Shown here: positions 12,824-33,337 of the stretch, in pieces | Layout: the number at the start of each line of letters is the position of its first letter | Numbering within the stretch: position 1 is the first letter of the stretch | From: a virus | Reading direction: 5' to 3' (one strand) | IMG/VR virus record: IMGVR_UViG_3300042465_007039 | Coordinates: 1-64,000 of that record | DNA: 64,000 nt | Notes under the pieces: generated by a model | The model's database searches: none | What the model was told of the DNA's origin: nothing | The model's input: the letters and a program-made list of their open reading frames with translations, nothing else | Position numbers and translations under genes: made by a program

Positions 12824-12856
12824 AATGTGATTCAAAGTTATTTAAGGAGTTTTACT

Positions 12857-13813
12857 ATGATCAAAAAATTATTACTGGTGTTGTTGGCCGTGCCTGTTAT
12901 GGCTGCTGCCTGGCAACCCACCAAACCTGTAACAGTTATCTACCCCAATGGCCCCGGTGCAGGCAACGAAATTTCATTTCGCATTGTGGCCGACATTGTG
13001 GAAAGAAAAACCGGTACAGTATTCCGAGCAGAGCACCGACCAGGCGCAGATGGTAACATTGCTATCAATCACTTTGCCACTGTACCAGCTGATGGATACA
13101 CTGTGGCCATGCCTGCTTGCAACTCCAATTGGGTTACAGCAGAAGTTTGGTACCCACAAACAGTCAAGTACAATATGTTTGATTTTGAACCAGTGGCCAA
13201 CATTGCCAAGAGTCCACTAGCATTTTGGGCAAACCCTGCTAGCAAAGTAAACACACCTGAAGATTTAATTCGTGAAATTCGAAGCAAGAGCCGGCCACTT
13301 AACTTTGCTATCGGCGGCGGCGGACACAAACTAGCAGTGGAATACCTAACAGATGCACTAGCTGTGCCGGGCGGTGATCGAGTACAAACTGCCATGTACA
13401 AAGGTCCAGCGCAAGCATTGTTGGATGTCATAGGTGGCCATGTGGAATTTGCAGTTACTCCAGTGGGAGTAGGTTATCCCCATGTCAAGGCTGGCAAACT
13501 CAAGCTGATTGGTTTGGCCAGCGAAGTTCCGCTCAAAGGTCTAGAGTCTGCTGAATTAATGAGCAAGTATGCTCCAGGACTCAACTTGTATGGTTGCTGG
13601 AACTTGATTCTGCCCAAGGGCACACCACAAGATGTACAGCAATGGTATCATGACAATTTTGTGCCGGCTATCCGTAGCGCAGAAGCACAAAAGAAGTTTG
13701 ATGATAATTTGATGTTTATCACTCGGAAAGAACACACCCCGGCTGGTGTGCATGCGGCCATGGTTAGACTCAAGTCAGACTGGACTCCGATTGCTAGAAA
13801 GGTTGCGCCTTGA
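12857..13813 (+). CDS. Periplasmic tripartite tricarboxylate transporter receptor (TctC/Bug family)
   Basis: 318 residues. The ATG at 12857, with AAGGAG 8 nt upstream, gives a clean Sec signal peptide (MIKKLLLVLLAVPVMAAA) removed before WQPTKPVTVIYPNGPGAG. The family hallmarks are present: P-x-G-x-G-N near the N-terminus, G-A-D-G-N-I-A (the G-x-x-G-x-x-A segment), the D-G-Y-T motif and a GGHV-E-F block. These proteins capture carboxylates such as citrate or other small organic acids in the periplasm for the TctAB permease. No permease genes are in the window, so a phage copy would have to work with the host TctAB. Length is normal for the family. Confidence 0.9.
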   Translation: MIKKLLLVLLAVPVMAAAWQPTKPVTVIYPNGPGAGNEISFRIVADIVERKTGTVFRAEHRPGADGNIAINHFATVPADGYTVAMPACNSNWVTAEVWYPQTVKYNMFDFEPVANIAKSPLAFWANPASKVNTPEDLIREIRSKSRPLNFAIGGGGHKLAVEYLTDALAVPGGDRVQTAMYKGPAQALLDVIGGHVEFAVTPVGVGYPHVKAGKLKLIGLASEVPLKGLESAELMSKYAPGLNLYGCWNLILPKGTPQDVQQWYHDNFVPAIRSAEAQKKFDDNLMFITRKEHTPAGVHAAMVRLKSDWTPIARKVAP

Positions 13814-17176: not shown

Positions 17177-17229
17177 CATGGCTGCTAACACACAGGGTGG
17201 TCAGTCTAAAATTAATGGAGCACACTAAA

Positions 17230-17856
17230 ATGTCAAACAATTTTGGGTTAACATTGTCACAACTGGAAGAAATGGTTCCGGGAAATCCTCATATTGATAG
17301 TTGGTACGAAGCACTGGAGCAGATACTGCCAGACTACGATATCAACACTCCGCAGAGAATTGCAGCATTTGTTGCTCAATGCGCTCATGAAAGCGGTGGA
17401 TTCAAATTTATCAAAGAAAATTTAAATTATAGGGCAGTCAGTCTGCGCAAGACTTTTGCCAAGTATTTTCCCACAGATGAATTGGCACAGCAGTATGCAG
17501 GCAAAGGCGAAATGATTGCCAATAGAGTTTATGCCAATCGCATGGGCAACGGCAATGAAGCCAGTGGCGATGGTTATCGTTATTGTGGTCGAGGCCTTAT
17601 TCAGTTGACTGGCAAAGACAACTACACTCGCTATGCCGAAAGCACAGAACAGTCAGTGGAAGAAGCCAGCGAACATTTATTAACCTTCGAAGGCTGTGTA
17701 CAAAGTGCTGCATGGTTCTGGGAAGCCAACAACTTGAATCAATGGGCCGACAAGGGTGACATTGTCACCTTGACCAAACGAATCAATGGCGGCACCATTG
17801 GGCTCGAAGATCGTATCAAACACTATAATCATGCTTTACATGTGCTAGGATTATAA
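17230..17856 (+). CDS. Endolysin, glycoside hydrolase family 19 (chitinase/lysozyme-like)
   Basis: 208 residues from the ATG at 17230 (GGAG upstream). The GH19 pattern is clear: RIAAFVAQCAHESGGF carries the catalytic Glu, followed by YCGRGLIQLTGKDNYTRYAE, the hallmark G-R-G-x-I-Q-L-T-G, and a C-terminal W-F-W-E and R-I-N-G-G. Phage GH19 endolysins cut the peptidoglycan glycan strand. There is no signal peptide, so release needs the holin encoded 0.8 kb downstream. It leads a cassette of endolysin, inner spanin, outer spanin and holin. Confidence 0.93.
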   Translation: MSNNFGLTLSQLEEMVPGNPHIDSWYEALEQILPDYDINTPQRIAAFVAQCAHESGGFKFIKENLNYRAVSLRKTFAKYFPTDELAQQYAGKGEMIANRVYANRMGNGNEASGDGYRYCGRGLIQLTGKDNYTRYAESTEQSVEEASEHLLTFEGCVQSAAWFWEANNLNQWADKGDIVTLTKRINGGTIGLEDRIKHYNHALHVLGL

Positions 17857-17857
17857 T

Positions 17858-18340
17858 ATGTGGTTACTGCATTTCTTTTCGGACAGTTTTTTACAGTTTA
17901 TAGTCAATGCAGTATTGATAACTGGCGTAGTCGGCACTGTTTTATTCTGTTTCTTTCTCAATAAGATTTTACAATTTTTTCCGCCACTGGCACCGTACTA
18001 CAAAGCATTGCAAATTGGCAGCATAGTTGTACTGTTGGCTGGCGTGTACTTTAAAGGCGGCTACGCTACTGAAATGATTTGGCGTGACAAGGTAAAAGAA
18101 GTAGAAGCCAAGTTGGCCGCAGCTGAAGCTGAAAGCAAAAAAGAAACTGTAAAAATTGTAGAACGGGTTGTCAAGAAGACCGAAGTTATTCAGCGGCGTG
18201 GGCAAGATGTTGTTCAATATATTGATCGAGAAGTTGTCAAATACGATACAAAATTTTTACCTGGTGGCGTGTGTGAAATACCAAAAGAATTTGTCAAAGC
18301 ACACAATGACGCTGCTACTCCAGTTGAGGCTAAGAAATGA
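17858..18340 (+). CDS. Inner-membrane spanin-like protein (i-spanin)
   Basis: 160 residues with one or two N-terminal hydrophobic segments (about residues 10-35 and 45-65). A long charged coiled coil follows (KVKEVEAKLAAAEAESKKETVKIVERVVKK...) and then a short C-terminal domain with one Cys. Topology and the overlap of its end with a small lipoprotein gene are those of two-component spanins, which fuse inner and outer membranes in the last step of lysis. Identity rests on topology and context, since spanins are poorly conserved in sequence. Confidence 0.75.
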   Translation: MWLLHFFSDSFLQFIVNAVLITGVVGTVLFCFFLNKILQFFPPLAPYYKALQIGSIVVLLAGVYFKGGYATEMIWRDKVKEVEAKLAAAEAESKKETVKIVERVVKKTEVIQRRGQDVVQYIDREVVKYDTKFLPGGVCEIPKEFVKAHNDAATPVEAKK

Positions 18341-19386: not shown

Positions 19387-20154
19387 ATGGATCACTACAA
19401 AACACTTGATGTTGCTCGTACTGCCACTCCGGACGAAATAAAAAAAGCCTATCGCAAGCTGGCTTCTCAACATCATCCTGACAAAGGCGGCAACACTGTC
19501 AAGTTTCAAGAACTGCAAACTGCATACGATACCCTGAGCGATCCTGCCCAGCGAGCTGAATACGACAACCCTAGACCGCAGTTTTCAGGATTCCCCGGCG
19601 GTGGATTCAACATGCACGACATCTTTGGACAGATGTTTGGTCAGCAGTCCGGACAAACATCTCGCAGAAATCATGTGCGTATGACTGTGTGGATCACCTT
19701 GCTGGATGTGGCGCAAGGCGGCAGTCGCACTGTGAATGTAGGCACATCAACAGGGTCCAGCACCGTGCAAATTGAAATCCCAAAAGGCATCAACGATGGA
19801 GACAATGTTCAATACAGTGGCGTGGGCCCAGGTGGTGTAGACCTGATTGTGCAATTTCGAGTCCGCCCAGATGCCAGATGGCGCCGAGAAGACCTCAATC
19901 TCTACTGCGAGCATCGTGTGCCAATCTGGGACCTGATTCTAGGAGTCGAGACCGAAGTGATCAATATACTAGGACACCAATTGGTTGTGGGTGTGCCGCA
20001 AGGCACTCAACCGGGCACCACCATGCGACTGAAAGGACATGGCCTGCAGGATCGTCACGGCCAAACAGGAGATCTAATGTTACGTGTTCAAGGCGAAATA
20101 CCCAAAACAATTGCCCCAGAAATTGTGGCGGCCATACAACAATACCAAAAATAA
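19387..20154 (+). CDS. DnaJ/CbpA-type J-domain co-chaperone
   Basis: 255 residues. Residues 1-65 are a J domain with the invariant HPD (30-32), the contact that stimulates DnaK ATPase. A short Gly/Phe region (GFPGGGFNMHDIFGQMFG) follows, then two DnaJ C-terminal peptide-binding lobes (about 95-250). The cysteine zinc-finger of class I DnaJ is absent, so it is a class II protein like CbpA. It would act with host DnaK. Next to it, under a separate promoter, is a ClpA-like unfoldase, suggesting a joint role in protein remodelling. No ribosome site precedes the ATG. Confidence 0.93.
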   Translation: MDHYKTLDVARTATPDEIKKAYRKLASQHHPDKGGNTVKFQELQTAYDTLSDPAQRAEYDNPRPQFSGFPGGGFNMHDIFGQMFGQQSGQTSRRNHVRMTVWITLLDVAQGGSRTVNVGTSTGSSTVQIEIPKGINDGDNVQYSGVGPGGVDLIVQFRVRPDARWRREDLNLYCEHRVPIWDLILGVETEVINILGHQLVVGVPQGTQPGTTMRLKGHGLQDRHGQTGDLMLRVQGEIPKTIAPEIVAAIQQYQK

Positions 20155-20156
20155 AC

Positions 20157-20185
20157 TTGCATTGCAGTTGGCATTGCGTTATAAT
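20157..20185 (+). promoter_or_regulatory. Sigma70-like promoter for the clpA-like gene
   Basis: TTGCAT (20157-20162), 17-bp spacer, TATAAT (20180-20185), located between the dnaJ stop and the ATG at 20210. A perfect -10 makes this one of the stronger promoters in the window. Confidence 0.65.
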
Positions 20186-20209
20186 AAACAAAACAACTCA
20201 AGGATTCCA

Positions 20210-22468
20210 ATGACCCCTACTCCCGAAATTGAACACATTGTTGATCAGGCTGTGAAAATTGCACAGGAGCGGCAGCACGAATATGTGACCTCTGAACACC
20301 TGCTGTTGAGCATGATTCGATATGCACCTTTTAGAAAAACTGTGGCCAATTTTGGTGTGGACACTGACCACATGGACCAGGAAATTGATGTATATCTAAA
20401 AAGCCTTGTGAGCCTGGTCAACCCCGACGTTGATGTGCCTAAAAAGACACAGGCCCTGGAACGCATTTTTAACCGTGCCAACGTACAGGTCATGTTTACC
20501 GGTCGTCGCAACCTTACCGTGATTGATCTGTATCTTTCAATCATGAGCGAAGGCAATAGTCACGCACAATATTTCATGTTGAAATTTGGCATGAAGAAAT
20601 CAGAGTTTGTGGAGTTCTGGCAAAAGAATTATCGACCCACTGATGTCAAACTCAGTAGCAGCCAGGCCGACAGCATTCTAAACGAATACTGCACTAGTCT
20701 TACTGCTTGTGCTGAAAAAGATCAGTTAGAACCCATGATTGGTCGAAGCAAAGAACTGGAAGAAATGATCACCGTGCTGGCTCGACGCTTCAAGGCCAAT
20801 GTGCTCATGGTTGGCGATCCTGGTGTGGGCAAAACACACATTGTGGATGGCCTGGCACAGGAAATCATTGCCGGACGTGTGCCCGAGTTCCTAAAAGGGC
20901 ATGAAGTCTGGAGTCTTGAAATTGGCAGCCTGCTGGCAGGTTCTAAATATCGCGGCGAGTTTGAAGAAAAATTTAAAGCAGTTATTTCTGCTCTGGAATC
21001 CAAGAAAAACTGTATCCTGTTTGTGGACGAAGCGCACACCATGAAAGGTGCGGGTGCAGGGTCAACTGCAGGGCTGGACTTTGCCAACATGCTGAAGCCG
21101 GCTATTACCAAAGGCAACCTCAAGGTTGTGGCGTCAACCACCTGGGAAGAGTACTACGAAAGCTTTGAAAAAGATCGTGCACTCATGCGTAGATTCTATC
21201 GACTCAGCATTGACGAGCCCGATGCAGAAACCACGGAAAAGATCCTGATTGGCCTCAGTCCGCGCCTGGAACAGTTTCACAATGTGTTGATTGACACAGA
21301 AGCCATGATCACTGCAGTGGAACTGGCTGCTCGTTACATTCATGACCGCAAGAATCCTGACAAAAGTATTGACATCATTGATGCTGCTTGTGCTCGAGAG
21401 CGTGTGAAAGATCAAGGCACAGTCACCGTCACTCGAGACATGATTGAACAGCAGGTGGCTCGCATGACTGGCGTGCCCACGGACAAACTGCAAAACGAGC
21501 GATCAGCCAAGATTGTGGAACTGGAATCAAACATCAAGCAAAAACTGTATGGGCAAGACTCAGCTGTGGACGCTGTGCTGGATCGAGTGTACATCAGCTT
21601 TGCTGGCATCAGCAACGAAAAACGACCCATGGCCAGTTTCTTGTTCTTGGGTCCAACCGGTACAGGCAAAACTGAACTGGCACGATTGTTGAGCCAAAAT
21701 CTTGACATGCATCTACTCAAGTATGACATGAGCGAGTTTCAAGAGCGGCACAGTGTGAGCGGCTTGATCGGTGCTCCCCCAGGCTATGTGGGTTTTGAAG
21801 ATGGCAACGTGGGCGGCGGCAAACTGATTTCTGACATCAGTAAGAATCCGTTCAGCATCATCTTGTTTGACGAAATTGAAAAAGCACATCCTGACGTCAG
21901 TAACATCTTGCTACAGATGCTGGACGAAGGTGTGATTACCAGCAGTGGTGGCAAACGAGTCAACGTCAAGAACTGTATCATTATCTTGACATCCAACCTG
22001 GGTGCTGCTGCCAGTGAAGTCAACAACATTGGCTTTGGTTCGCAGGAAAAAAGCGGAGAAGATGAGCGAGCACTCAAGGAGTTTTTCAAACCTGAAATGC
22101 GTAACCGTATTGATCAGATTGTGAAGTTCTCCAAGCTGGACACCCTGGCTATCAAGAAAGTGGTTGTGAAGTTTGCCGAAGAACTCAAGACCAGCTTGCT
22201 GGCCAAGAACATTCGACTCAACATGACCGAAGCTGTGATTGACATGCTGGCTGACAAAGGATATGACTCCAAGATGGGTGCACGACCCCTGAGTCGCAAG
22301 ATTGACCAGTTGATTCGAGTGCCACTCAGCAAGCGAATCTTGTTTGATCGGCTGGCAGACTGCGACATCACTGCGGACATGAATGGTGATGATGTGGTGT
22401 TTGATGCAGTGGCTCACGAAATTCCTGTGGTAGGCGATGACGGAATTATTCGATTTCCCACTCCATGA
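20210..22468 (+). CDS. ClpA-like AAA+ protein unfoldase
   Basis: I start at 20210 (AAGGA at 20199-20203, promoter just upstream) rather than 20084, which would overlap dnaJ; this gives 752 residues, almost exactly ClpA size. Order: Clp N-terminal repeat domain (about 1-145), AAA1 with GDPGVGKT (202-209) and ILFVDEAHT, then AAA2 with GPTGTGKT (481-488) and IILFDEIEKAH. There is no ClpB-type middle domain. In AAA2 an IGF tripeptide (607-609) sits where ClpA has its IGL ClpP-docking loop, so it may feed host ClpP. It would unfold host or phage proteins using ATP, perhaps with the neighbouring DnaJ. Confidence 0.93.
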   Translation: MTPTPEIEHIVDQAVKIAQERQHEYVTSEHLLLSMIRYAPFRKTVANFGVDTDHMDQEIDVYLKSLVSLVNPDVDVPKKTQALERIFNRANVQVMFTGRRNLTVIDLYLSIMSEGNSHAQYFMLKFGMKKSEFVEFWQKNYRPTDVKLSSSQADSILNEYCTSLTACAEKDQLEPMIGRSKELEEMITVLARRFKANVLMVGDPGVGKTHIVDGLAQEIIAGRVPEFLKGHEVWSLEIGSLLAGSKYRGEFEEKFKAVISALESKKNCILFVDEAHTMKGAGAGSTAGLDFANMLKPAITKGNLKVVASTTWEEYYESFEKDRALMRRFYRLSIDEPDAETTEKILIGLSPRLEQFHNVLIDTEAMITAVELAARYIHDRKNPDKSIDIIDAACARERVKDQGTVTVTRDMIEQQVARMTGVPTDKLQNERSAKIVELESNIKQKLYGQDSAVDAVLDRVYISFAGISNEKRPMASFLFLGPTGTGKTELARLLSQNLDMHLLKYDMSEFQERHSVSGLIGAPPGYVGFEDGNVGGGKLISDISKNPFSIILFDEIEKAHPDVSNILLQMLDEGVITSSGGKRVNVKNCIIILTSNLGAAASEVNNIGFGSQEKSGEDERALKEFFKPEMRNRIDQIVKFSKLDTLAIKKVVVKFAEELKTSLLAKNIRLNMTEAVIDMLADKGYDSKMGARPLSRKIDQLIRVPLSKRILFDRLADCDITADMNGDDVVFDAVAHEIPVVGDDGIIRFPTP

Positions 22469-24114: not shown

Positions 24115-26412
24115 ATGAAACAATTAGTCATCATGCCTGGCGGATTTCACCCTTTTCACGCAGGCCATCTAGCACTTTATCAATCTGCTGTTCAGGCTTT
24201 TCCTGGCGCTGATGTCAAAGTAGCTGCTACCAACGACACATCAACTCGTCCATTCCCTTTTGCACTCAAAGAAAAACTAGCACAACTGGCAGGAGTCGCC
24301 CCGGGCAACTTTTATCAAGTCAAAAGTCCATTTCGTGCTGAAGAGATTACCAAGAGTTACAATCCTGCTACCACACAGTTGATCTTTGTTCGCAGTGAAA
24401 AAGATGCCAACAAACTACCGCAAGCAGGAGGGGTCAAACGTGATGGCGCACCTGCATATCTGCAGCCCATCAGTGATCAACTGGCACCAATGACTCAGCA
24501 TGCCTACATGGTGTACTTGCCCACAGTGGAGTTTGGTCCAGGCATGACCAGTGCCACAGAAATACGCTCTGCCTGGCCCACACTCACAGATCGCCGCAAA
24601 ACAGCCTTGGTCATGAGCTTGTACCCCAAAACACAACGCAACCCCAAACTGGCTGCTGTTGTGGTCAAAATGCTGGATACTGCCATTGGCACACAAGAAG
24701 TAGATGAAAGATCGCTGAAAGAATTTGCTCCCGGGTCAGGCGGTGATGACGACATCGGCGATGATCCCTACAAGTATCCCAAGCCAGAGCGGTACCGTCG
24801 CAGTGCGGATTACTTTGGCCAATTTGAAGCAGATCATTTTGATCGTGAAGCCTTTGATGATGCCACTGGTGAGTTCAAAGGCTACTGGGGGCGTACACCA
24901 ATTGCTTATTTCAAGTTTGACAACCCAGCACGAACTGGCAGCGATGATCCGGGCCGAGGCTGGTACTACGAACCACAGTCAAACAACAGCGGTGACGACA
25001 CCAGTGCCGAACCTGCTGATGATAACGCTGAGCAACGCAAGCAACAAGAGTTGGGCATGATCCGTCAGTTTTTGAAATCTGGCAATCGACCAAATCCAGA
25101 CAGTCAAATTGGTCGATTGATGAAAAAACATGGCATAGAGGAAGATCTAAGCCGCAGAGGATTCTTACGAGGCCTAGGCGCTGCGGCTGCTGGTGCGGTC
25201 GGTGTTGGCGCTGCTGGTCCGGCTCAAGCACGATCAACTGATGCGTCACGAAAAGAAGATGCTGAGGCCTTGGCATTACTGGCCAAAGGTATGACTCCTG
25301 AACAAGTTGCTAAAAAATTAGGAGTTGCTGGACCAAATCACGGGCAGACCCATCATATGGGTGGTCGGTGGGCTTCAATCAATCGGGCAGCAGCACAGCT
25401 CCGACGACAACGAGGCCTAAACGAATTTGCAATGGGCGGCGGTGACGATGACGGCAACGATGGCTTCAGTGATGACACACTTAAACAGCTGGCAGCACAG
25501 TGGTACAATGGCGACGAAGATCCCAGAGTAGAACAAACACTGGCAGCAGCAGGTTGGGAAATTGGTCAAGATGAAGGCTATGATGATACACCGGGTGTGT
25601 TTGTGGTGCAGGCCGGAGACATCAACGGCAACAGCTATATCAGTTGGCCTGCCCACGAACTAGAAGGCCTGGCCGAAGCAAGCAAGCAAGGTGTGGCGGA
25701 AAACTTTGCTGATGGTAAAAACCCACAAGACAAAGGTGATGCCAAGCGTCACGGTATCAACACCAAGGCCAGTGTAAGCAGTCTACGCAAAACTGCCAAG
25801 CAAGGTGGACGCAAAGGACAACTGGCACACTGGTTGGCCAACATGAAAGCTGGCCGAGCCAAGAACGAGGACATAACAGAAGATAATGACTGCCCTCCGG
25901 CTACACAGGATATCTCACTCAATCTCAAGAACAGACAAAAAGCCATCAACGAATACGGTTACGGTCCGCTCAACCCAGACTTGCCCAACACCAAGTTCTG
26001 GATGAAAAAGGTTGATGAGTGGAATCTAGACAGCATGGAAGAAGCACAAAGCAGCTTGTGCGGTAATTGTGCAGCATTTGACATACGACAAGAAACTCTA
26101 GACTGTATTGCACAAGGTATTGATAGTGATAGTCCCGAAGACGCCGAAGGTGTGATTGATGCTGGCGACTTGGGCTATTGCAAGTTCCTAAAGTTCAAGT
26201 GTGCAAGCCGCAGAACATGTGATGCTTGGGTAACCGGTGGACCACTAGAGGACAAACCAGTTGACGAAAATCAAGGTTGGGCAGCAACATACCAAGAAGC
26301 AGACTCTGACTATATTGAAGAAAAGTGGAGCGCAAAATACAAGAGCAGTATCAATTGTGCCAATCCCAAAGGATTTAGTCAAAAAGCTCACTGCGCTGGT
26401 CGTAAAAAATAG
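24115..26412 (+). CDS. Modular protein: nucleotidyltransferase domain, twin-arginine-like segment, cysteine-rich modules
   Basis: 765 residues. Residues 1-200 are a cytidylyltransferase-like nucleotidyltransferase opening with MPGGFHPFHAGHLALYQ (HxGH site). An acidic linker follows. At 346-372 is a twin-arginine-like leader (SRRGFLRGLG, Ala/Gly hydrophobic run, ending AQA). A GVAE site stands at 526-529. After that come a basic module (KRHGINTKASVSSLRKTAKQ...), a cysteine module with SLCGNCAAFDIR and CKFLKFKCASRRTCDAW, and a final KWSAKYKSSINC...AHCAGRKK module. It reads as a chain of independent parts joined at cleavable borders. Probably packaged or virion-associated; the nucleotidyl substrate is unknown. 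Confidence 0.85.
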   Translation: MKQLVIMPGGFHPFHAGHLALYQSAVQAFPGADVKVAATNDTSTRPFPFALKEKLAQLAGVAPGNFYQVKSPFRAEEITKSYNPATTQLIFVRSEKDANKLPQAGGVKRDGAPAYLQPISDQLAPMTQHAYMVYLPTVEFGPGMTSATEIRSAWPTLTDRRKTALVMSLYPKTQRNPKLAAVVVKMLDTAIGTQEVDERSLKEFAPGSGGDDDIGDDPYKYPKPERYRRSADYFGQFEADHFDREAFDDATGEFKGYWGRTPIAYFKFDNPARTGSDDPGRGWYYEPQSNNSGDDTSAEPADDNAEQRKQQELGMIRQFLKSGNRPNPDSQIGRLMKKHGIEEDLSRRGFLRGLGAAAAGAVGVGAAGPAQARSTDASRKEDAEALALLAKGMTPEQVAKKLGVAGPNHGQTHHMGGRWASINRAAAQLRRQRGLNEFAMGGGDDDGNDGFSDDTLKQLAAQWYNGDEDPRVEQTLAAAGWEIGQDEGYDDTPGVFVVQAGDINGNSYISWPAHELEGLAEASKQGVAENFADGKNPQDKGDAKRHGINTKASVSSLRKTAKQGGRKGQLAHWLANMKAGRAKNEDITEDNDCPPATQDISLNLKNRQKAINEYGYGPLNPDLPNTKFWMKKVDEWNLDSMEEAQSSLCGNCAAFDIRQETLDCIAQGIDSDSPEDAEGVIDAGDLGYCKFLKFKCASRRTCDAWVTGGPLEDKPVDENQGWAATYQEADSDYIEEKWSAKYKSSINCANPKGFSQKAHCAGRKK
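25690..25701 (+). repeat. Dispersed GVAE-coding repeat, copy 3
   Basis: GGTGTGGCGGAA encodes residues 526-529 in the context SKQGVAE-N, between an acidic region and a basic module. The SKQGVAE heptapeptide recurs at 32870. Confidence 0.65.
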
Positions 26413-27371: not shown

Positions 27372-27396
27372 GCGCAGGTGGCTTTGGCAGTGCGCA

Positions 27397-27403
27397 ATAA
27401 ATA
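27397..27403 (+). promoter_or_regulatory. Late promoter box directly before the giant gene
   Basis: ATAAATA ends 4 nt before the ATG at 27408, just downstream of a terminator, so this gene has its own start of transcription. The 4-12 nt upstream of the ATG contain no purine-rich ribosome site. Confidence 0.55.
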
Positions 27404-27407
27404 CACT

Positions 27408-30400
27408 ATGAACATCGAAGAACTAGACGCCTACAATCTTGACGACGCAGTGAAATTTCACGACCACTTGAATCCCCGACTCTGGGACTCTCGTGAGCAG
27501 TTGCGTCCCGAAGTGCGTGTCAAGTTGTTAGAAATAGCAGCTGACTTTGAAGAATTCCTGGGACTCAACGATGTGTCTGTGCAAGACATCACCATTTCAG
27601 GTTCCAATGCTGCCTACAGCTACACCAATCACTCAGACATTGATCTGCACCTGGTTGTGGCCATGCCCCAGGGTTCCAGTGCTGATGTTTATCGTGAACT
27701 GTTTGACGCCAAGAAATATCAATACAACAACCTGCACAACATTCGCATAGGCGCTGCTGATGTGGAACTGTATGTGCAGGACGCAGATCAACCGCATCAC
27801 TCACAGGGCATCTACAGTGTAAGAAACAACCAGTGGATCAGTGTGCCGCGTCGTAGATCAGCTGATGTCAACGACTCTGCTGTACAACGCAAGTACCAAG
27901 ATCTAGGCACTCGTATTGAAAACATTCTAAGCAGCAGTGATCATGAACAGTTGGCTCGCATGATGACCAAGATCAAGACCATGCGAGCCGCAGGACTAGA
28001 GCGTGAAGGTGAGTTTGGTGTGGACAACATTGTGTTCAAACTGTTGCGCAACAATGGCCTGATCAAACGCTTGGTTGATGCTCGCAGTGCTGCACGTGAT
28101 GCTGAACTCAGCCTCAATGAACGCAAACGAAAGAAAAAGTCCAGCCGTGTGCGATATGGCTACGGTGGCTACTGGACTCCAGGCTACAACTTTGGTGGCA
28201 CAGAACTAGGCGGAGACTCTGGTGGCGGAGATGGTGGAGGTGGCGAAAGTGTGCGTGAAGCTTCTACTCCCGACGGGGTCAGCGCCAGTACCAAGATGTT
28301 CCTGGAACAAGACTCTGTCAGCACCACAGACATTGTGCAAGATTTTGTGAGCTTTTGTGTGGGCGAACTTGGTATCCAGCAGCAGCCTCAACTGCGACTG
28401 CGTCGTGACCCTGCCTGGAGCCAACGCAATCACAGCTTTGGACAGTTTGATCCTGCCTCCAACAAACTCAATGTCAGCATGGCCAACCGTCATGTGATGG
28501 ATATCCTGCGCACAGTGGCACACGAGATGGTACACTACCACCAACAAGAACAACAAGACTTGCCGCCCAACGCAGGCGCTACTGGCAGCAAATACGAAAA
28601 CGAAGCCAATGCCAGAGCTGGCGAACTCATGAGAAACTACGGGCAACAGCATCCTGAACTGTTTGAACCAGGTGCTGTGGCCGAAGGATGGCGTAAACAA
28701 CAGCAGAACGAAAGCTCGGGCTATATTCCCACCAAGAAAGAACGCAACGATCCCAGATTCAGCATGGCTCTAAGCCCCGATGTGCAGCCAGGTGCCACAG
28801 GCAAAAATGCTAACAAACTGGCATTGAAAACCAATACACAAGGTCAGCCAGGCCTGCTGATGAAAACTGTTAACCTGCGTGAGTCCACGAAAACTAACTT
28901 GTCAGAAATTGATCGCAGAGGTGTGCTCAAGGCCATTGGTGCAGGTGCAGTGGCCACAGCGGTGCCAGGGGTAGCACAAGCAGGACCATTTGTGGATGTT
29001 GCTGCGTTAGGAAAATCCAATCCCGAGCAGGCTCAAAAAGTATGGACGCCCAGGTACCAAGAACTCACCACACGATGCCAAAACATCATGCGCCGATTGA
29101 TTGCAGCAGCAGGGCCTAAATGGGCGCCACTGTTGAAAGGCACCACCATTCGTGTGGTCTCAAGTGACAATTATGCACAGGCCAGTGCAATTTCGCGAAT
29201 GATTGCTATTGATCTTTCGGTGTTCTGGGATGCTCCGGACGCTGCCTTGGCATTTACCATAGCACATGAGCTGGGACATATTGCCCTGGAACATGGTGCC
29301 GGCACTGATGACGAGTCAGCAGACTACAAAACTCAATTGCGAGTGGCTGCACTGTATCGCCAAGGCGAACTGGATGCAGACGAGTTTGCGGTGCGCATCT
29401 GCAAGACACTGGGCTACAACAAGGCCGAAGTGTTCAAATTCATTGCCCAGAACGAAGCAGAATTGCAAATGTTTGATCTACTGACACAATCACCCACCAG
29501 CACTCACCCCAGCCAAAAGACTCGTATTGACCGAGCTAGAATGAATGGGTTTCAGTTGAGTCGTGGCGGTATTGAACAAATGAATGTGTTGAAGCAACAC
29601 CTGGCTGAGCATGACACAGTACACAGTGATCTGATTGAAAATCTACAACAAGAATTTGCACTGTTTGAAGAACAGGACCTGTTTGAAATCAACATGAGTC
29701 CCACAAATCTAAAAAAACTAGCAGCACAAACAGGCGCCAGGGCCGGCATGGAATTTGAGATGATTGTACCCGGTATCGAAGGTGGGGAAGACGCTGAACA
29801 AGAACCTGACTACGACGCCGACGAAAATGTCATGAGCATTGAGGATGCAGCGCAGTTCTTTTTTGACGGTGACTTCAACGGTCGAAGAGACATTCAACGC
29901 CTGCGTGAAAGCATGAGCGAAGATTATCAGACTTGGCTGGGTGACGCCTGGATGGAGCATTTTGAAACCTACAAAACTACCATTGTGTTTAGATTCGGCA
30001 AAGAAAATTGGGAAGAAGCACAAATTGCCGAAATCATGGGCCTGGACGAAGCTGAAACCGAAGCATTAGAAACTCGCGGTGCGACTCCCGAAGATTACAT
30101 GGACGCTGCTGAAAAAGTCATTGCTGATGGATTAGATCCCTGGCTGAATGATGCGCAGGAAGATGCACAAGAAGAATATTACGATGAAGATCACGAAGAT
30201 GATTGGTTGGCCAGTGAAGGTATTCGTTCAATGAGCGATGTTTCAAGTCAGTACAATATCATGTGGCCATATTGGAGCAGTGGTAGCAATGAAGGTGCTG
30301 GTATTGAATCCGTTGCTGATGAATTCCGTGAGGCCATTGGTCGCAAAGTAAACTGGTCTGATAGTTACCATGGTGGCAAACGAGAGCCCAACACTTATGT

Positions 30401-31811
30401 GGTCGAGCCAGACGGCAGCCTGATTCCCAGTGACAGCGATGACGCAGGCCTGGAGTTTGTGAGCCCTCCCTTGCCCATTGACGAAATGATCAGTGATCTA
30501 AACAAGGTCAAGGCCTGGGCTGATCAACGAGGCTGCTATACCAGTAAAGCTGCCAAAACAGGCCTACACATCAATGTGAGTGTGCCAGGCTTTGACAATG
30601 ACAAACTGGACTATGTCAAGCTGGCGCTGTTGCTGGGCGACGAGTATGTGCTGAATCAATTTGGTCGACTTGGCAACAGCTATGCAAACAGCGCCATGGG
30701 CATAATCAAAGAGCGAATTGCTCAACGGCCCGAAGATGCTGCTGCCATGTTGCAAAAAATGAAAACAGGTCTGGGTGAGCTGGCCAGCAAAGTTGTACAC
30801 AGCGGCACAACCAGTAAATTTACCAGTATCAACACCAAGGATGGATATATTGAATTTCGTAGTCCCGGTGGTGATTGGTTGGGTGACAATTTTGACAAGA
30901 TTGAAACCACTCTGATGAGATTTGTGGTGGCACTGGATGCTGCCATGGATCCTGCAAAGTATCGTGATGAGTACTTGAAGAAACTGTACACTGTGCTCAA
31001 GCCCAAAGATCAGAATGATACCTTGAGTTATTTTGCTAAATTTGCTGCCGGTGAATTGCCCAAGGCTGCACTAAAGAGTTTTATCAAACAAGCACAACTG
31101 GAGCGCAAAGGCAAAAAGAGCAGTGGTGACTCTGCATATACTGCAATCCCCAGCAGTGGAAATCAGAAATACGAAATACAACGCACAGCCAATAATGAAA
31201 TTGTGGGCACATTCAACGCAGACAGCGATACTGATGCCAATGCAGTTGCTCGCCAATGGATGGCAGACAATGGACTACAGCGAGTTGATTTTAGATTAAA
31301 TCGTGCAACAGGACAAGAACGAGCCGAACAGCGAGCCGGAGTCAGCAACTACAAAATCTATCAAATTTCTGATGGTAGAACAGTGGGCACATTCTATGCT
31401 GCCGATCAGGCTCAAGCTGACTCTGAATTCACTGACTGGTTGATGAGTCCCGAAGCCGGTGGCAGAGACGACTTTAGATACGCACCAATTGACACCCCAA
31501 TTCAAGGTCTTGCCGCCAGCACCCCGCGACCGCGGTCTGACATCATTGACATCGAGCCAGATGTAGAGCAGAACTTTGTGCCTGGATCGACCCTGGATCT
31601 GCAACGACAACGACAAGCAGCACAGCAATCTGCTGCTGGAACATTTAGAGGCACCTGGGCAATCAAGGACAGTCAAGGCAACACACTACACACCTTCGGC
31701 GGAATCGGCAATGCACAAGCAGATGCCAACAGAGTTGCAGCAGGTTGGCTGGCCCGTGCAGGATATCAAGACGGCCTTGAAGTTGCGGTTGTTCCTGTGA
31801 TGGAGCCGTAA
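27408..31811 (+). CDS. Giant multidomain protein: nucleotidyltransferase, two metallopeptidases, twin-arginine-like leader, amidoligase, triple C-terminal repeat
   Basis: 1467 residues from the ATG at 27408. (1) Pol-beta-type nucleotidyltransferase, about 40-240, with SGSNAAYSYTNHSDIDLHL. (2) Gly-rich linker. (3) Zincin, about 305-430, with HEMVH (372-376) and a later N-E-A-N-A. (4) Twin-arginine-like DRRGVLKAIG (502-511) with an Ala-rich run ending AQA. (5) M48-like peptidase with HELGH (620-624) and ELDADEFA. (6) Amidoligase-like region, about 770-1225: MEFEM, GLEFVSPPLP, GLHINVSV, EFRSPGGDW. (7) Three copies of a roughly 45-residue domain, from about 1255. FEPGAVAE after domain 3 resembles the GVAE sites. 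I infer a polyprotein-like packaged cargo; its maturation is untested. Confidence 0.88.
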   Translation: MNIEELDAYNLDDAVKFHDHLNPRLWDSREQLRPEVRVKLLEIAADFEEFLGLNDVSVQDITISGSNAAYSYTNHSDIDLHLVVAMPQGSSADVYRELFDAKKYQYNNLHNIRIGAADVELYVQDADQPHHSQGIYSVRNNQWISVPRRRSADVNDSAVQRKYQDLGTRIENILSSSDHEQLARMMTKIKTMRAAGLEREGEFGVDNIVFKLLRNNGLIKRLVDARSAARDAELSLNERKRKKKSSRVRYGYGGYWTPGYNFGGTELGGDSGGGDGGGGESVREASTPDGVSASTKMFLEQDSVSTTDIVQDFVSFCVGELGIQQQPQLRLRRDPAWSQRNHSFGQFDPASNKLNVSMANRHVMDILRTVAHEMVHYHQQEQQDLPPNAGATGSKYENEANARAGELMRNYGQQHPELFEPGAVAEGWRKQQQNESSGYIPTKKERNDPRFSMALSPDVQPGATGKNANKLALKTNTQGQPGLLMKTVNLRESTKTNLSEIDRRGVLKAIGAGAVATAVPGVAQAGPFVDVAALGKSNPEQAQKVWTPRYQELTTRCQNIMRRLIAAAGPKWAPLLKGTTIRVVSSDNYAQASAISRMIAIDLSVFWDAPDAALAFTIAHELGHIALEHGAGTDDESADYKTQLRVAALYRQGELDADEFAVRICKTLGYNKAEVFKFIAQNEAELQMFDLLTQSPTSTHPSQKTRIDRARMNGFQLSRGGIEQMNVLKQHLAEHDTVHSDLIENLQQEFALFEEQDLFEINMSPTNLKKLAAQTGARAGMEFEMIVPGIEGGEDAEQEPDYDADENVMSIEDAAQFFFDGDFNGRRDIQRLRESMSEDYQTWLGDAWMEHFETYKTTIVFRFGKENWEEAQIAEIMGLDEAETEALETRGATPEDYMDAAEKVIADGLDPWLNDAQEDAQEEYYDEDHEDDWLASEGIRSMSDVSSQYNIMWPYWSSGSNEGAGIESVADEFREAIGRKVNWSDSYHGGKREPNTYVVEPDGSLIPSDSDDAGLEFVSPPLPIDEMISDLNKVKAWADQRGCYTSKAAKTGLHINVSVPGFDNDKLDYVKLALLLGDEYVLNQFGRLGNSYANSAMGIIKERIAQRPEDAAAMLQKMKTGLGELASKVVHSGTTSKFTSINTKDGYIEFRSPGGDWLGDNFDKIETTLMRFVVALDAAMDPAKYRDEYLKKLYTVLKPKDQNDTLSYFAKFAAGELPKAALKSFIKQAQLERKGKKSSGDSAYTAIPSSGNQKYEIQRTANNEIVGTFNADSDTDANAVARQWMADNGLQRVDFRLNRATGQERAEQRAGVSNYKIYQISDGRTVGTFYAADQAQADSEFTDWLMSPEAGGRDDFRYAPIDTPIQGLAASTPRPRSDIIDIEPDVEQNFVPGSTLDLQRQRQAAQQSAAGTFRGTWAIKDSQGNTLHTFGGIGNAQADANRVAAGWLARAGYQDGLEVAVVPVMEP

Positions 31812-33337
31812 TGAGAGCAAAAGAATTCATCATTGTCGAATACAGAGATAGACTGTTGCAATATGTAAAGAGTTTGTTACCTAACTACCCAGAGTATGTT
31901 CTTAAAGATTGGTTAGTACCCAACAAAGGCAACTTTAGCAATTTGCCAGACACAGAACTCAAAAATGGCATAATGGAAAAATTAAAAGGGGCAGGACTTA
32001 CTCCTAACACCAAATGGCAACTTGTTCCTGACATGAAGTTTACTATGGATATGTTTGAGCCAATGACCACTAAACGATTGATAGGTCGTGCTGGTGGAAA
32101 CAGTGATATGGGCTTAGATGTACCACGAGACAAAGAAAGACACGCAACTCAAGCAGCATTAGCACAACAACAAGGTGGTGTGCGTAAAGAACCAGTGCTA
32201 TTAATAAAAACAGACAAGGGCTACGAATTGTTAGAAGGGTGGCATAGAACTATACAACACTTTGCCAAGTATCCAGATGGCTATACAGGTCCTGCTTATG
32301 TGGCAGTGGCTCAAGGTCAGCTGAGTCTAGCAGAAGGTGCAACAGTAACACGAATTGATTCTAAACCTATCACAGATTTTTCGTCTAGTCTCAAAGCATA
32401 CAAGCATACAGATGATTGGAGTCAGAGTGGTTTAGATACAGGTGACGATAGTTATTGGAAAAATAAAAATCTCAAAACTAACACTACCAAAGGATTGTTT
32501 GCTGGTGATCCACGTAGAACAGCACTATACGCCACAGGCAATGCACATGAAACACGCTATGTAGAGTTTACGCAAAACGGCCAACCTATTGTTTATTTTG
32601 ACCAAAAAGATTTGCCAGCAATGCGTAGTCGTAAAACTTACTTGACTGTGTTTGATGCTAGCGATTTCAGACAATTACCAACAGGTGAATGGTTTAGTGA
32701 AAATCCTAGTAAACCTATCAAGCAGGTGCCCATTGGCGATCCATTCAAATATATTGCTAGTCAAGGGTGGATAGTCCGTGTTACTGATGATTTAGACAAA
32801 GTATTCAAACAAGTAAAAAACATGCACAAAGCAGGTAAAATTGCTCAATATGGTGCAGAGGGTATGAATGAAAGTAAACAAGGTGTAGCGGAAGACCTAA
32901 CTGAAGTAGTCGATCTTGACACAGCATTTCCACTGAAGTGGGATCAACAGTTTGCGGCACAGGGCGAGATTCATGCAGCAGCAACAGATGCTGACGGCAG
33001 AGAAATTGGCATATCGTTTACCCCAGCAGGCAACGGTGAAATAACCGATGTGGCATTTACTCGTGGCGGCACACATGAGATGACTGGCCGGGGAGATGCA
33101 GGTCGAGTAATGGCCACTGTGATCAATGCCATCAACCTCTATACAAAAAAATATAAACCACCATATCTAGCGTTCAGTGCCAAGTCAGGTGGTGGTAGAT
33201 CCGGTGCATACACAGCAATGATTCGGCGCCATGCACAAGGATATGAACTGTTGCCCACCGATAAATACCCAGCTGCCTTGAACAACTATCTTGAGTTCAT
33301 TGGCACAGATCAACCATTTGTATTGGCCCGAACATGA
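31811..33337 (+). CDS. Modular protein with MRAKEF N-terminus, GWHR (ParB/Srx-like) region and GVAE site
   Basis: 508 residues beginning MRAKEFIIVEY, very like T4 internal-protein targeting peptides (cut expected after I-V-E). Residues about 95-165 contain EPVLLIKTDKGYELLEGWHRT, a ParB/sulfiredoxin-like GxHR motif. About 175-345 is an unrecognised domain (GLFAGDPRRTALYATG). NESKQGVAE at 353-361 leads to a C-terminal domain with SAKSGGGRSGAYTAMIRRHA. Base composition of the first 1 kb is more A+T-rich than the C-terminal part, which suggests modules of different origin. Starts at a TAATG junction with the giant gene. Probably packaged with it; biochemical role unknown. Confidence 0.82.
   Translation: MRAKEFIIVEYRDRLLQYVKSLLPNYPEYVLKDWLVPNKGNFSNLPDTELKNGIMEKLKGAGLTPNTKWQLVPDMKFTMDMFEPMTTKRLIGRAGGNSDMGLDVPRDKERHATQAALAQQQGGVRKEPVLLIKTDKGYELLEGWHRTIQHFAKYPDGYTGPAYVAVAQGQLSLAEGATVTRIDSKPITDFSSSLKAYKHTDDWSQSGLDTGDDSYWKNKNLKTNTTKGLFAGDPRRTALYATGNAHETRYVEFTQNGQPIVYFDQKDLPAMRSRKTYLTVFDASDFRQLPTGEWFSENPSKPIKQVPIGDPFKYIASQGWIVRVTDDLDKVFKQVKNMHKAGKIAQYGAEGMNESKQGVAEDLTEVVDLDTAFPLKWDQQFAAQGEIHAAATDADGREIGISFTPAGNGEITDVAFTRGGTHEMTGRGDAGRVMATVINAINLYTKKYKPPYLAFSAKSGGGRSGAYTAMIRRHAQGYELLPTDKYPAALNNYLEFIGTDQPFVLART
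32882..32893 (+). repeat. Dispersed GVAE-coding repeat, copy 4
   Basis: GGTGTAGCGGAA encodes residues 358-361 within NESKQGVAED. The seven residues SKQGVAE match copy 3, although the surrounding proteins are otherwise unrelated. Confidence 0.65.

Follow-up and report, generated by a model that had tools for sequence, protein, structure and literature searches.

A twin-arginine leader inside a giant phage protein follows a predicted prohead-protease site and precedes an M48 peptidase

In the 64,000-nucleotide window analysed here, which is part of the viral IMG/VR record IMGVR_UViG_3300042465_007039, a giant multidomain open reading frame (ORF) encodes a twin-arginine leader in the middle of its product, directly behind a predicted prohead-protease site and ahead of an M48-type zinc peptidase. 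Sequence comparison supports the leader, the site, the boundaries of the module that they delimit, the recurrence of this arrangement in relatives and selection on the leader. We propose that a cut by the prohead protease unmasks the leader within the head and that the module, after ejection, is re-exported by the twin-arginine translocation (Tat) system, a course of events that we hold to lie a little on the probable side.

Twin-Arginine Leader in the Giant Protein

Residue numbers count from the GTG at 27378 throughout, although translation probably begins at the ATG at 27408 (residue 11), given that homologues start with MNI-x-ELD. Handles beginning with L and G denote viral loci and contig records, respectively. 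The initial annotation had described a twin-arginine leader in mid-protein before the HELGH peptidase, and such a leader is present in frame (ESTKTNLSE, residues 502–510; IDRRGVLKAIG, 511–521; AQA, 533–535), the residue labels given there having been about nine too low; the uncharged hydrophobic stretch and the A-x-A end are as it described them, nucleotide 28908 being residue 511.

Searched in six frames with the Pfam TAT_signal profile, matches being taken to E 1, the complete 71,947-base record returned the leader as the best match (28905–28967, E 3.3e-5, 21.4 bits) and only one other, a second internal leader (25144–25200, E 0.0098), which lies behind IEE-343 in a polyprotein-like ORF whose homologue in the nearest relative, G002, has 1480 aa. 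A scan of the single protein placed TAT_signal at residues 510–530 (15.4 bits). The twin-arginine motif reads D-RR-G-V-L-K and is followed by an uncharged hydrophobic core and A-x-A, as is typical of Tat signal peptides. Its position is atypical, the leader being at residue 511 of the primary product and N-terminal only after a cut behind residue 510.

The leader is kept in relatives with 86%, 60% and 48–51% identity across the module, and RR, L-K and A-x-A are invariant in all four aligned M48 leaders. Its arginines are retained with differing codons, and purifying selection acts on the leader codons (pN/pS 0.163/0.613 against L003 and 0.223/0.618 against L358). The Pfam cut-off for TAT_signal is reached in relatives L104, L052, L125, L141 and L154, and in G022 and G020.

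Module Boundaries and Predicted Structure

The prohead protease gp21 of phage T4 cleaves after L/I-x-E, and T4 internal proteins are ejected, as stated in sections of PMC9026906. Predicted sites of this type in the giant protein include LSE-510, LAE-744 and others; the pattern occurs 16 times in the whole chain and not once between 510 and 744. Six standalone M48 proteins and the fused L029 stop at HLA, the point at which three giants read on as HLAE, so that both ends of the module coincide with predicted protease sites. The features are collected in Table 1.

Table 1. Features of the giant ORF and its surroundings in the window.
Feature	Position	Strand	Basis or remark
Second ORF with internal leader, cytidylyltransferase-like N-terminus then IEE-343	24115..26412	+	
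GIEE-343 then DLSRRGFLRGLGAAAAGAVGVGAAGPAQA	25132..25230	+	TAT_signal match
Giant multidomain ORF	27378..31811	+	1477 aa from GTG 27378
HEMVH, SprT-like zinc-peptidase motif, upstream of cassette	28521..28535	+	Pfam SprT-like, weak, E 0.076
Junction cassette SGYIP..DPRFSMAL..LLMKTVNLREST	28707..28889	+	7-row alignment, 62–75% identity
LRE-502, possible prohead-protease site	28875..28883	+	[LI]xE list
NLSE-510, predicted prohead-protease site, two residues ahead of twin arginine	28896..28907	+	T4 motif L/I-x-E
Predicted excised module, leader and M48 peptidase, residues 511–744	28908..29609	+	Site pattern
Internal twin-arginine leader IDRRGVLKAIGAGAVATAVPGVAQA, residues 511–535, ending A-Q-A	28908..28982	+	TAT_signal matches
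HELGH zinc-binding/catalytic motif, residues 630–634	29265..29279	+	Invariant in 10/10
GELDADE, third zinc ligand region, residues 663–669	29364..29384	+	Sequence comparison
QHLAE-744, predicted downstream protease site	29595..29609	+	C-terminus of standalone homologues
Amidoligase-like domain, residues 975–1163	30300..30866	+	Pfam Amidoligase_2
Next gene, starting MRAKEFIIVE	31811..33337	+	Translation

Pfam assigns the peptidase to M48 with 39.4 bits (cut-off 20.3), and HExxH together with the downstream Glu ligand is invariant in 10/10 sequences. Besides M48, the protein carries an amidoligase-like domain (30.8 bits, E 3.4e-7), a weak SprT-like match and an N-terminal region covered by PHROG 36119 (residues 18–244), and thus has the two or more effector-type domains that mark a polyvalent protein. 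The modules attached 3' of the junction cassette (SGYIP...LLMKTVNLRE) vary between phages (window, L034–L113).

A structure model of residues 511–744 had a mean pLDDT of 73.9; its first 28 residues, the leader, remained below pLDDT 50 and unfolded, and most of the remainder folds. Foldseek returned Escherichia coli BepA first (E 0.009, TM 0.39–0.44), followed by 3c37, and a sequence search of the PDB gave no match. BepA is periplasmic.

Relatives of the M48 Module

Scans of IMG/VR yielded three kinds of M48 relatives, namely giants with an internal leader (window, L003–L005, L358/L359), fusions to another upstream domain (L029, L032) and standalone proteins, the latter with a leader (L006 and near-copies, L361) or without one (L009, L010, L368). 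A phi-x-E pattern precedes the leader in every leader-bearing M48, as NLSE|ID, DLSE|VD, HLNE|AD, ELAE|AIS, KVSE|AIN, FISE|AIS or FITE|IG. Leader and site are common to fused and standalone forms, and the upstream sequence differs, as seen from FISE|AISRR in standalone L006, ELAE|AISRR and KVSE|AINRR in fused L029 and L032, and HLNE|ADRR in the giant L358. In the comparison with separately encoded peptidases for which the initial annotation had called, standalone L006 and L361 carry the leader behind phi-x-E.

Standalone relatives begin with a short N-terminal stretch ending in phi-x-E, such as MRANEFISE, MRAVEFIAE or MRAREFITE, and their leaders lie 10–20 residues from the start; L006 and L024 start with GTG nine codons ahead of the predicted cut, and the junction lacks a start codon in the fused L029 and L032. 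The start of the gene following the giant ORF, MRAKEFIIVE, resembles these short starts, a resemblance and nothing further.

Among 50,697 records of cultured phages no homologue of the M48 module was found, nor one of L125. The 35-residue leader peptide also gave no match among cultured phages, although low-complexity masking may have affected this query. For L104 there were matches in 35 phage records; of the 15 rows listed, 13 cover only its last 86–94 residues, beyond the leader, and the other two are joined pieces. TAT_signal had no match in the cultured phages S-CREM2, S-B68, Motura and DSL-LC02. The GH19 of the Synechococcus phages S-CREM2 and S-B68 was considered as a cultured example and rejected, as it sits among baseplate and hub genes and hence in another context.

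Recurrence of the Site and Leader

The composite of phi-x-E and leader, in which the E precedes the first R by three or four residues, recurs in relatives before M48, GH19, LysM and unknown modules, fused or standalone. To quantify it, RR followed by an uncharged hydrophobic stretch was sought, whatever the preceding residues, in 4,811 distinct ORFs of at least 60 aa from 113 loci and the window. ORFs of at least 200 aa gave 18 hits, 15 of them leader-like, and phi-x-E preceded all 15 (14/14 without the near-copy L023); the remaining three, two Clp-ATPase-like stretches and one antisense ORF, lacked it. ORFs below this length gave a further 25 hits, almost all of them on the loci's minus strand, which were left out of the count.

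The DNA pattern RRGF[LF]xGx[GA]3 was searched in all viral contigs and in cellular genomes. Of 31 viral matches, 24 had at least 10 uncharged residues and 21 were distinct, with phi-x-E in 11/21. The cellular sample held at least 120 loci; among the matches listed there were 121, 105 with the stretch and 101 distinct, with phi-x-E in 2/101 (Fisher p 1.6e-8 for viral versus cellular, among the matches listed).

With the TAT_signal hidden Markov model, 16 phage contigs and the four cultured phages gave 13 matches in 8/20 records. Two were eight-residue scraps; phi-x-E preceded 10 of the 11 others, the exception reading LND-DISRR. In a 524-kb contig the leader stands at residue 398 of a 687-aa ORF, ahead of a HECGH peptidase, with GLAE and a form of the junction cassette after this leader/HECGH module; most fused Tat forms have their leader core within residues 208–616.

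Internal twin-arginine leaders without phi-x-E were seen in other viruses, at residue 409 of an open 1481-aa ORF in L138 and at residue 129/352 in L148, where another processing route is perhaps used.

GH19 Modules and Leader Classes

According to Pfam, the modules behind leaders include GH19 (internal in L053; standalone in L062, L143 and L146; with LysM in L136), LysM with a phage lysozyme (L124, internal), M48 (window, L029) and DUF6321 (L104), and several unknown domains also follow leaders. The GH19 set, gathered with a GH19 alignment, comprised the best 80 of 550 viral loci, of which 55 remained at 90% identity and were classed by script as 18 Tat, 32 Sec-like hydrophobic and five without a leader. 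Phi-x-E stood just upstream in 16/18 Tat and, within six residues, in 27/32 Sec-like cases, compared with 3.1% and 10.4% at random positions of the respective chains; the strict form L/I-x-E was present at 19/32 Sec-like sites. The two Tat-classed proteins without phi-x-E were L320, which reads IAD, and L306, which was rejected as a Tat leader, its RR having been wrongly assigned by the rule and the real stretch being Sec-like. The use of two leader classes at one position by a single enzyme, GH19, is difficult to account for if export does not matter.

Sec-like and lipobox-bearing internal leaders behind phi-x-E were also found in L014, L052, L092, L093, L098, L003 (internal) and in GH19 of L280–L354. 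Among 59 distinct internal candidates, 32 had phi-x-E within 12 residues versus 19.4% at random; many of the remaining candidates resemble membrane or tape-measure segments. L052 and L397 further show repeated GVAEG linkers, each matching phi-x-E, between short stretches of one chain.

The window's own GH19 (17197–17856) has no leader and is followed by a membrane-protein ORF; the two (17197–18340) are probably lysis genes.

Prohead Protease and Capsid Genes

The gp21-type protease (PF03420) was above cut-off in 3/15 records (340, 344 and 347 kb) and in 10/12 large contigs, with G007 in both sets, which amounts to 13/26 distinct records and 13/16 of those above 225 kb. The major capsid profile Gp23 was found in the same 3/15 records and in 11/12 large contigs, or 14/16 above 225 kb. 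G007 (343 kb) and G009 (225 kb) have neither; G016 lacks the protease, and its record ends inside the Gp23 match (353941–354096 of 354098). Gp23 was absent from all 13 small contigs, which is uninformative because these are fragments. TAT_signal had no match in G012, G013, G016, G017, G019, G021, G024 and G025, records that had been chosen on account of the cassette or of Sec-like leaders.

In G002, the nearest relative, the gp21-type protease is present, and the order of portal-like gene, protease, one more ORF and major capsid protein is that of T4, with portal and scaffold names that are our assumption. Its capsid protein contains ILE and LKE ahead of the conserved region. Extra short ORFs of about 117–139 aa matching parts of the Gp23 model, several of them N-terminal, were noticed in G015, G016, G017 and G019.

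Proposed Course and Alternatives

The phage would be of T4 type, probably a jumbo phage, and would package the giant protein as a polyvalent-type polyprotein. Within the prohead, a gp21-type protease would cut after NLSE-510 and after a further site, for instance HLAE-744; the 234-residue module set free in this way would now begin with a complete twin-arginine leader. Ejected with the DNA into the cytoplasm of a new host, the folded module would be exported by the host Tat system and trimmed by signal peptidase at AQA; since Tat moves folded proteins after their synthesis, it would naturally suit a protein delivered in finished form. The BepA-like M48 peptidase would then act in the periplasm, most likely on envelope proteins, and our guess is that it attacks, for example, receptors or their assembly and so limits superinfection. 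While the phage is being made, the internal position would keep the leader hidden, and the producing cell would package the enzyme without exporting it. The initial annotation had suggested that a prohead-protease cut near ESTKTNLSE frees a Tat leader, and this gains good comparative support from the phi-x-E that immediately precedes the leader in both fused and standalone forms, from module ends that coincide with protease sites and from the T4-type protease in large relatives; the cleavage itself, packaging, ejection, export and target are inferred. The arrangement also extends beyond what the initial annotation had envisaged, to GH19, LysM and other modules and to a Sec-like version.

Several observations weigh against this proposal. 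Both TAT_signal scores of the leader are below the Pfam cut-off of 22.7, the NCBIfam model TIGR01409 gives 13.5 (cut-off 16.7), and, with respect to the Tat consensus S/T-RR-x-F-L-K cited in a portion of PMC3383694, V replaces F of SRRxFLK and position −1 is D in place of S/T. The strict L/I-x-E is found at only 7/18 GH19 Tat sites, many relatives having V-x-E and similar, the BepA match is weak, and the record itself, a 72-kb fragment, has no protease or capsid gene by the PF03420 and Gp23 profiles. The statistics are overstated because homologous modules are non-independent events. A leader is lacking in three standalone M48 relatives (L009, L010, L368), and the leaders of the other standalone copies are already near the N-terminus, so that unmasking is unnecessary there; these copies are the main weakness of the masking idea, and their site may serve only to shed a targeting stretch.

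A chance motif was rejected on account of the top TAT_signal rank, the recurrence, the GH19 counts against background and the viral–cellular contrast. The leader could be a harmless remnant of an M48 gene captured together with its N-terminal leader, as the standalone homologues L006 and L361 and the three relatives that manage without a leader would allow; purifying selection on the leader codons, the retention of phi-x-E although the preceding sequence differs, and the same arrangement in many different fusions, with two leader classes, make such a relict decidedly unlikely. Self-cutting by the zinc peptidases (SprT-like at 382, M48 at 630), with leader and phi-x-E incidental, would agree with a role proposed for metallopeptidases of polyvalent proteins in the accessible part of PMC5512222, but GH19 and other modules without M48 share leader and site, and M48 also occurs alone, which renders it highly improbable. 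There is the slimmest of chances that translation starts internally at Met-495 and yields a separate protein with an N-terminal leader: its MKTVNLRE resembles the short starts of standalone relatives and the ATG is conserved, but no conserved ribosome-binding site precedes it in seven loci, the Met is present whichever module follows, and the junctions of the fused L029 and L032 offer no start.

Two further alternatives concern where or how the leader works. Some chains might be cut early and exported late in the producing cell, for example to weaken the envelope before lysis, with no packaging involved. The standalone leaders, 10–20 residues from the start, would be usable at once, and GH19 and lysozyme modules suit a lysis role; this is nevertheless unlikely, given the depth of the leader core in most fused Tat forms, the separate leaderless GH19 of this phage beside a membrane-protein ORF, and phi-x-E, which would not be needed. 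It is likewise rather unlikely that the stretch, in place of working as a Tat signal, is a hydrophobic helix by which the ejected module becomes anchored in or inserted into the membrane as the DNA enters. In other GH19 modules, Sec-like GW[KR]D and Ala-rich stretches do occupy the same place; set against this are the invariance of twin arginines, L-K and A-x-A in the aligned M48 leaders, the relatives that reach the Pfam TAT cut-off and the occurrence of lipobox versions.

The proposal of unmasking and re-export may be extended to a general two-step address system, for which we see about an even chance: capsid proteases of large T4-type phages would unmask Tat, Sec-like and lipoprotein-like leaders in packaged polyproteins, and host secretion would forward the modules to the periplasm or envelope, the leader class being swappable before the same enzyme. 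If so, ejected phage proteins would reach beyond the cytoplasm, and virion effectors would bear a second address hidden until capsid maturation. This would give a reason for muralytic and peptidase modules inside such polyproteins, phi-x-E plus leader would serve as a sequence rule by which to predict where modules begin and end in proteins that for the most part are annotated as hypothetical, and an envelope take-over early in infection would become directly testable.

Comparison with Known Systems

The T4 internal proteins and Alt carry a capsid targeting sequence, are cut by gp21 after L/I-x-E and are ejected. The standalone relatives with their short N-terminal phi-x-E stretch, and the gp21-type protease in relatives, resemble this system; unlike the T4 proteins, which are described as entering the host cytoplasm, the cut proposed here would expose an export leader, often deep in a polyprotein. 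Polyvalent proteins of phages and conjugative elements, as portrayed in sections of PMC5512222, likewise combine many domains in one delivered chain, among them zinc peptidases and lysozymes, and are presumed to be split for different targets, with processing credited there to the metallopeptidase and the lysozymes to breaching the wall on entry. In phiKZ and SPN3US heads, many of the packaged proteins are processed behind a Glu by the prohead protease (PMC5694885, PMC9026906); the motif is S/A-x-E or A-x-E, and the passages at hand from these papers mention no export leader.

RR-x-h-L-K, the uncharged hydrophobic core and A-x-A are shared with bacterial Tat signal peptides, unlike the non-N-terminal position in the primary product and the phi-x-E directly ahead. 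HExxH with a downstream Glu ligand, the Pfam M48 score and BepA as top Foldseek match link the enzyme to BepA and other M48 peptidases, from which it differs in being fused within a phage polyprotein and in lacking a PDB sequence match.

The terms twin-arginine, signal peptide and periplasm had no match in PMC5512222 (polyvalent proteins) or PMC7824862 (jumbo phages), and a literature search, largely at title and abstract level, found no paper describing a leader behind a prohead-protease site.

Further Features of the Window

Elsewhere in the window, 12827–13813 encodes a periplasmic binding protein-like product with a signal peptide, which we take to be of the Bug/TctC-type family and a hint at a betaproteobacterial host. 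The region 19387–22468 holds an ORF adjoining a Clp-type ATPase (PHROG 4871, ATP-dependent protease); the adjoining ORF is presumably DnaJ-like.
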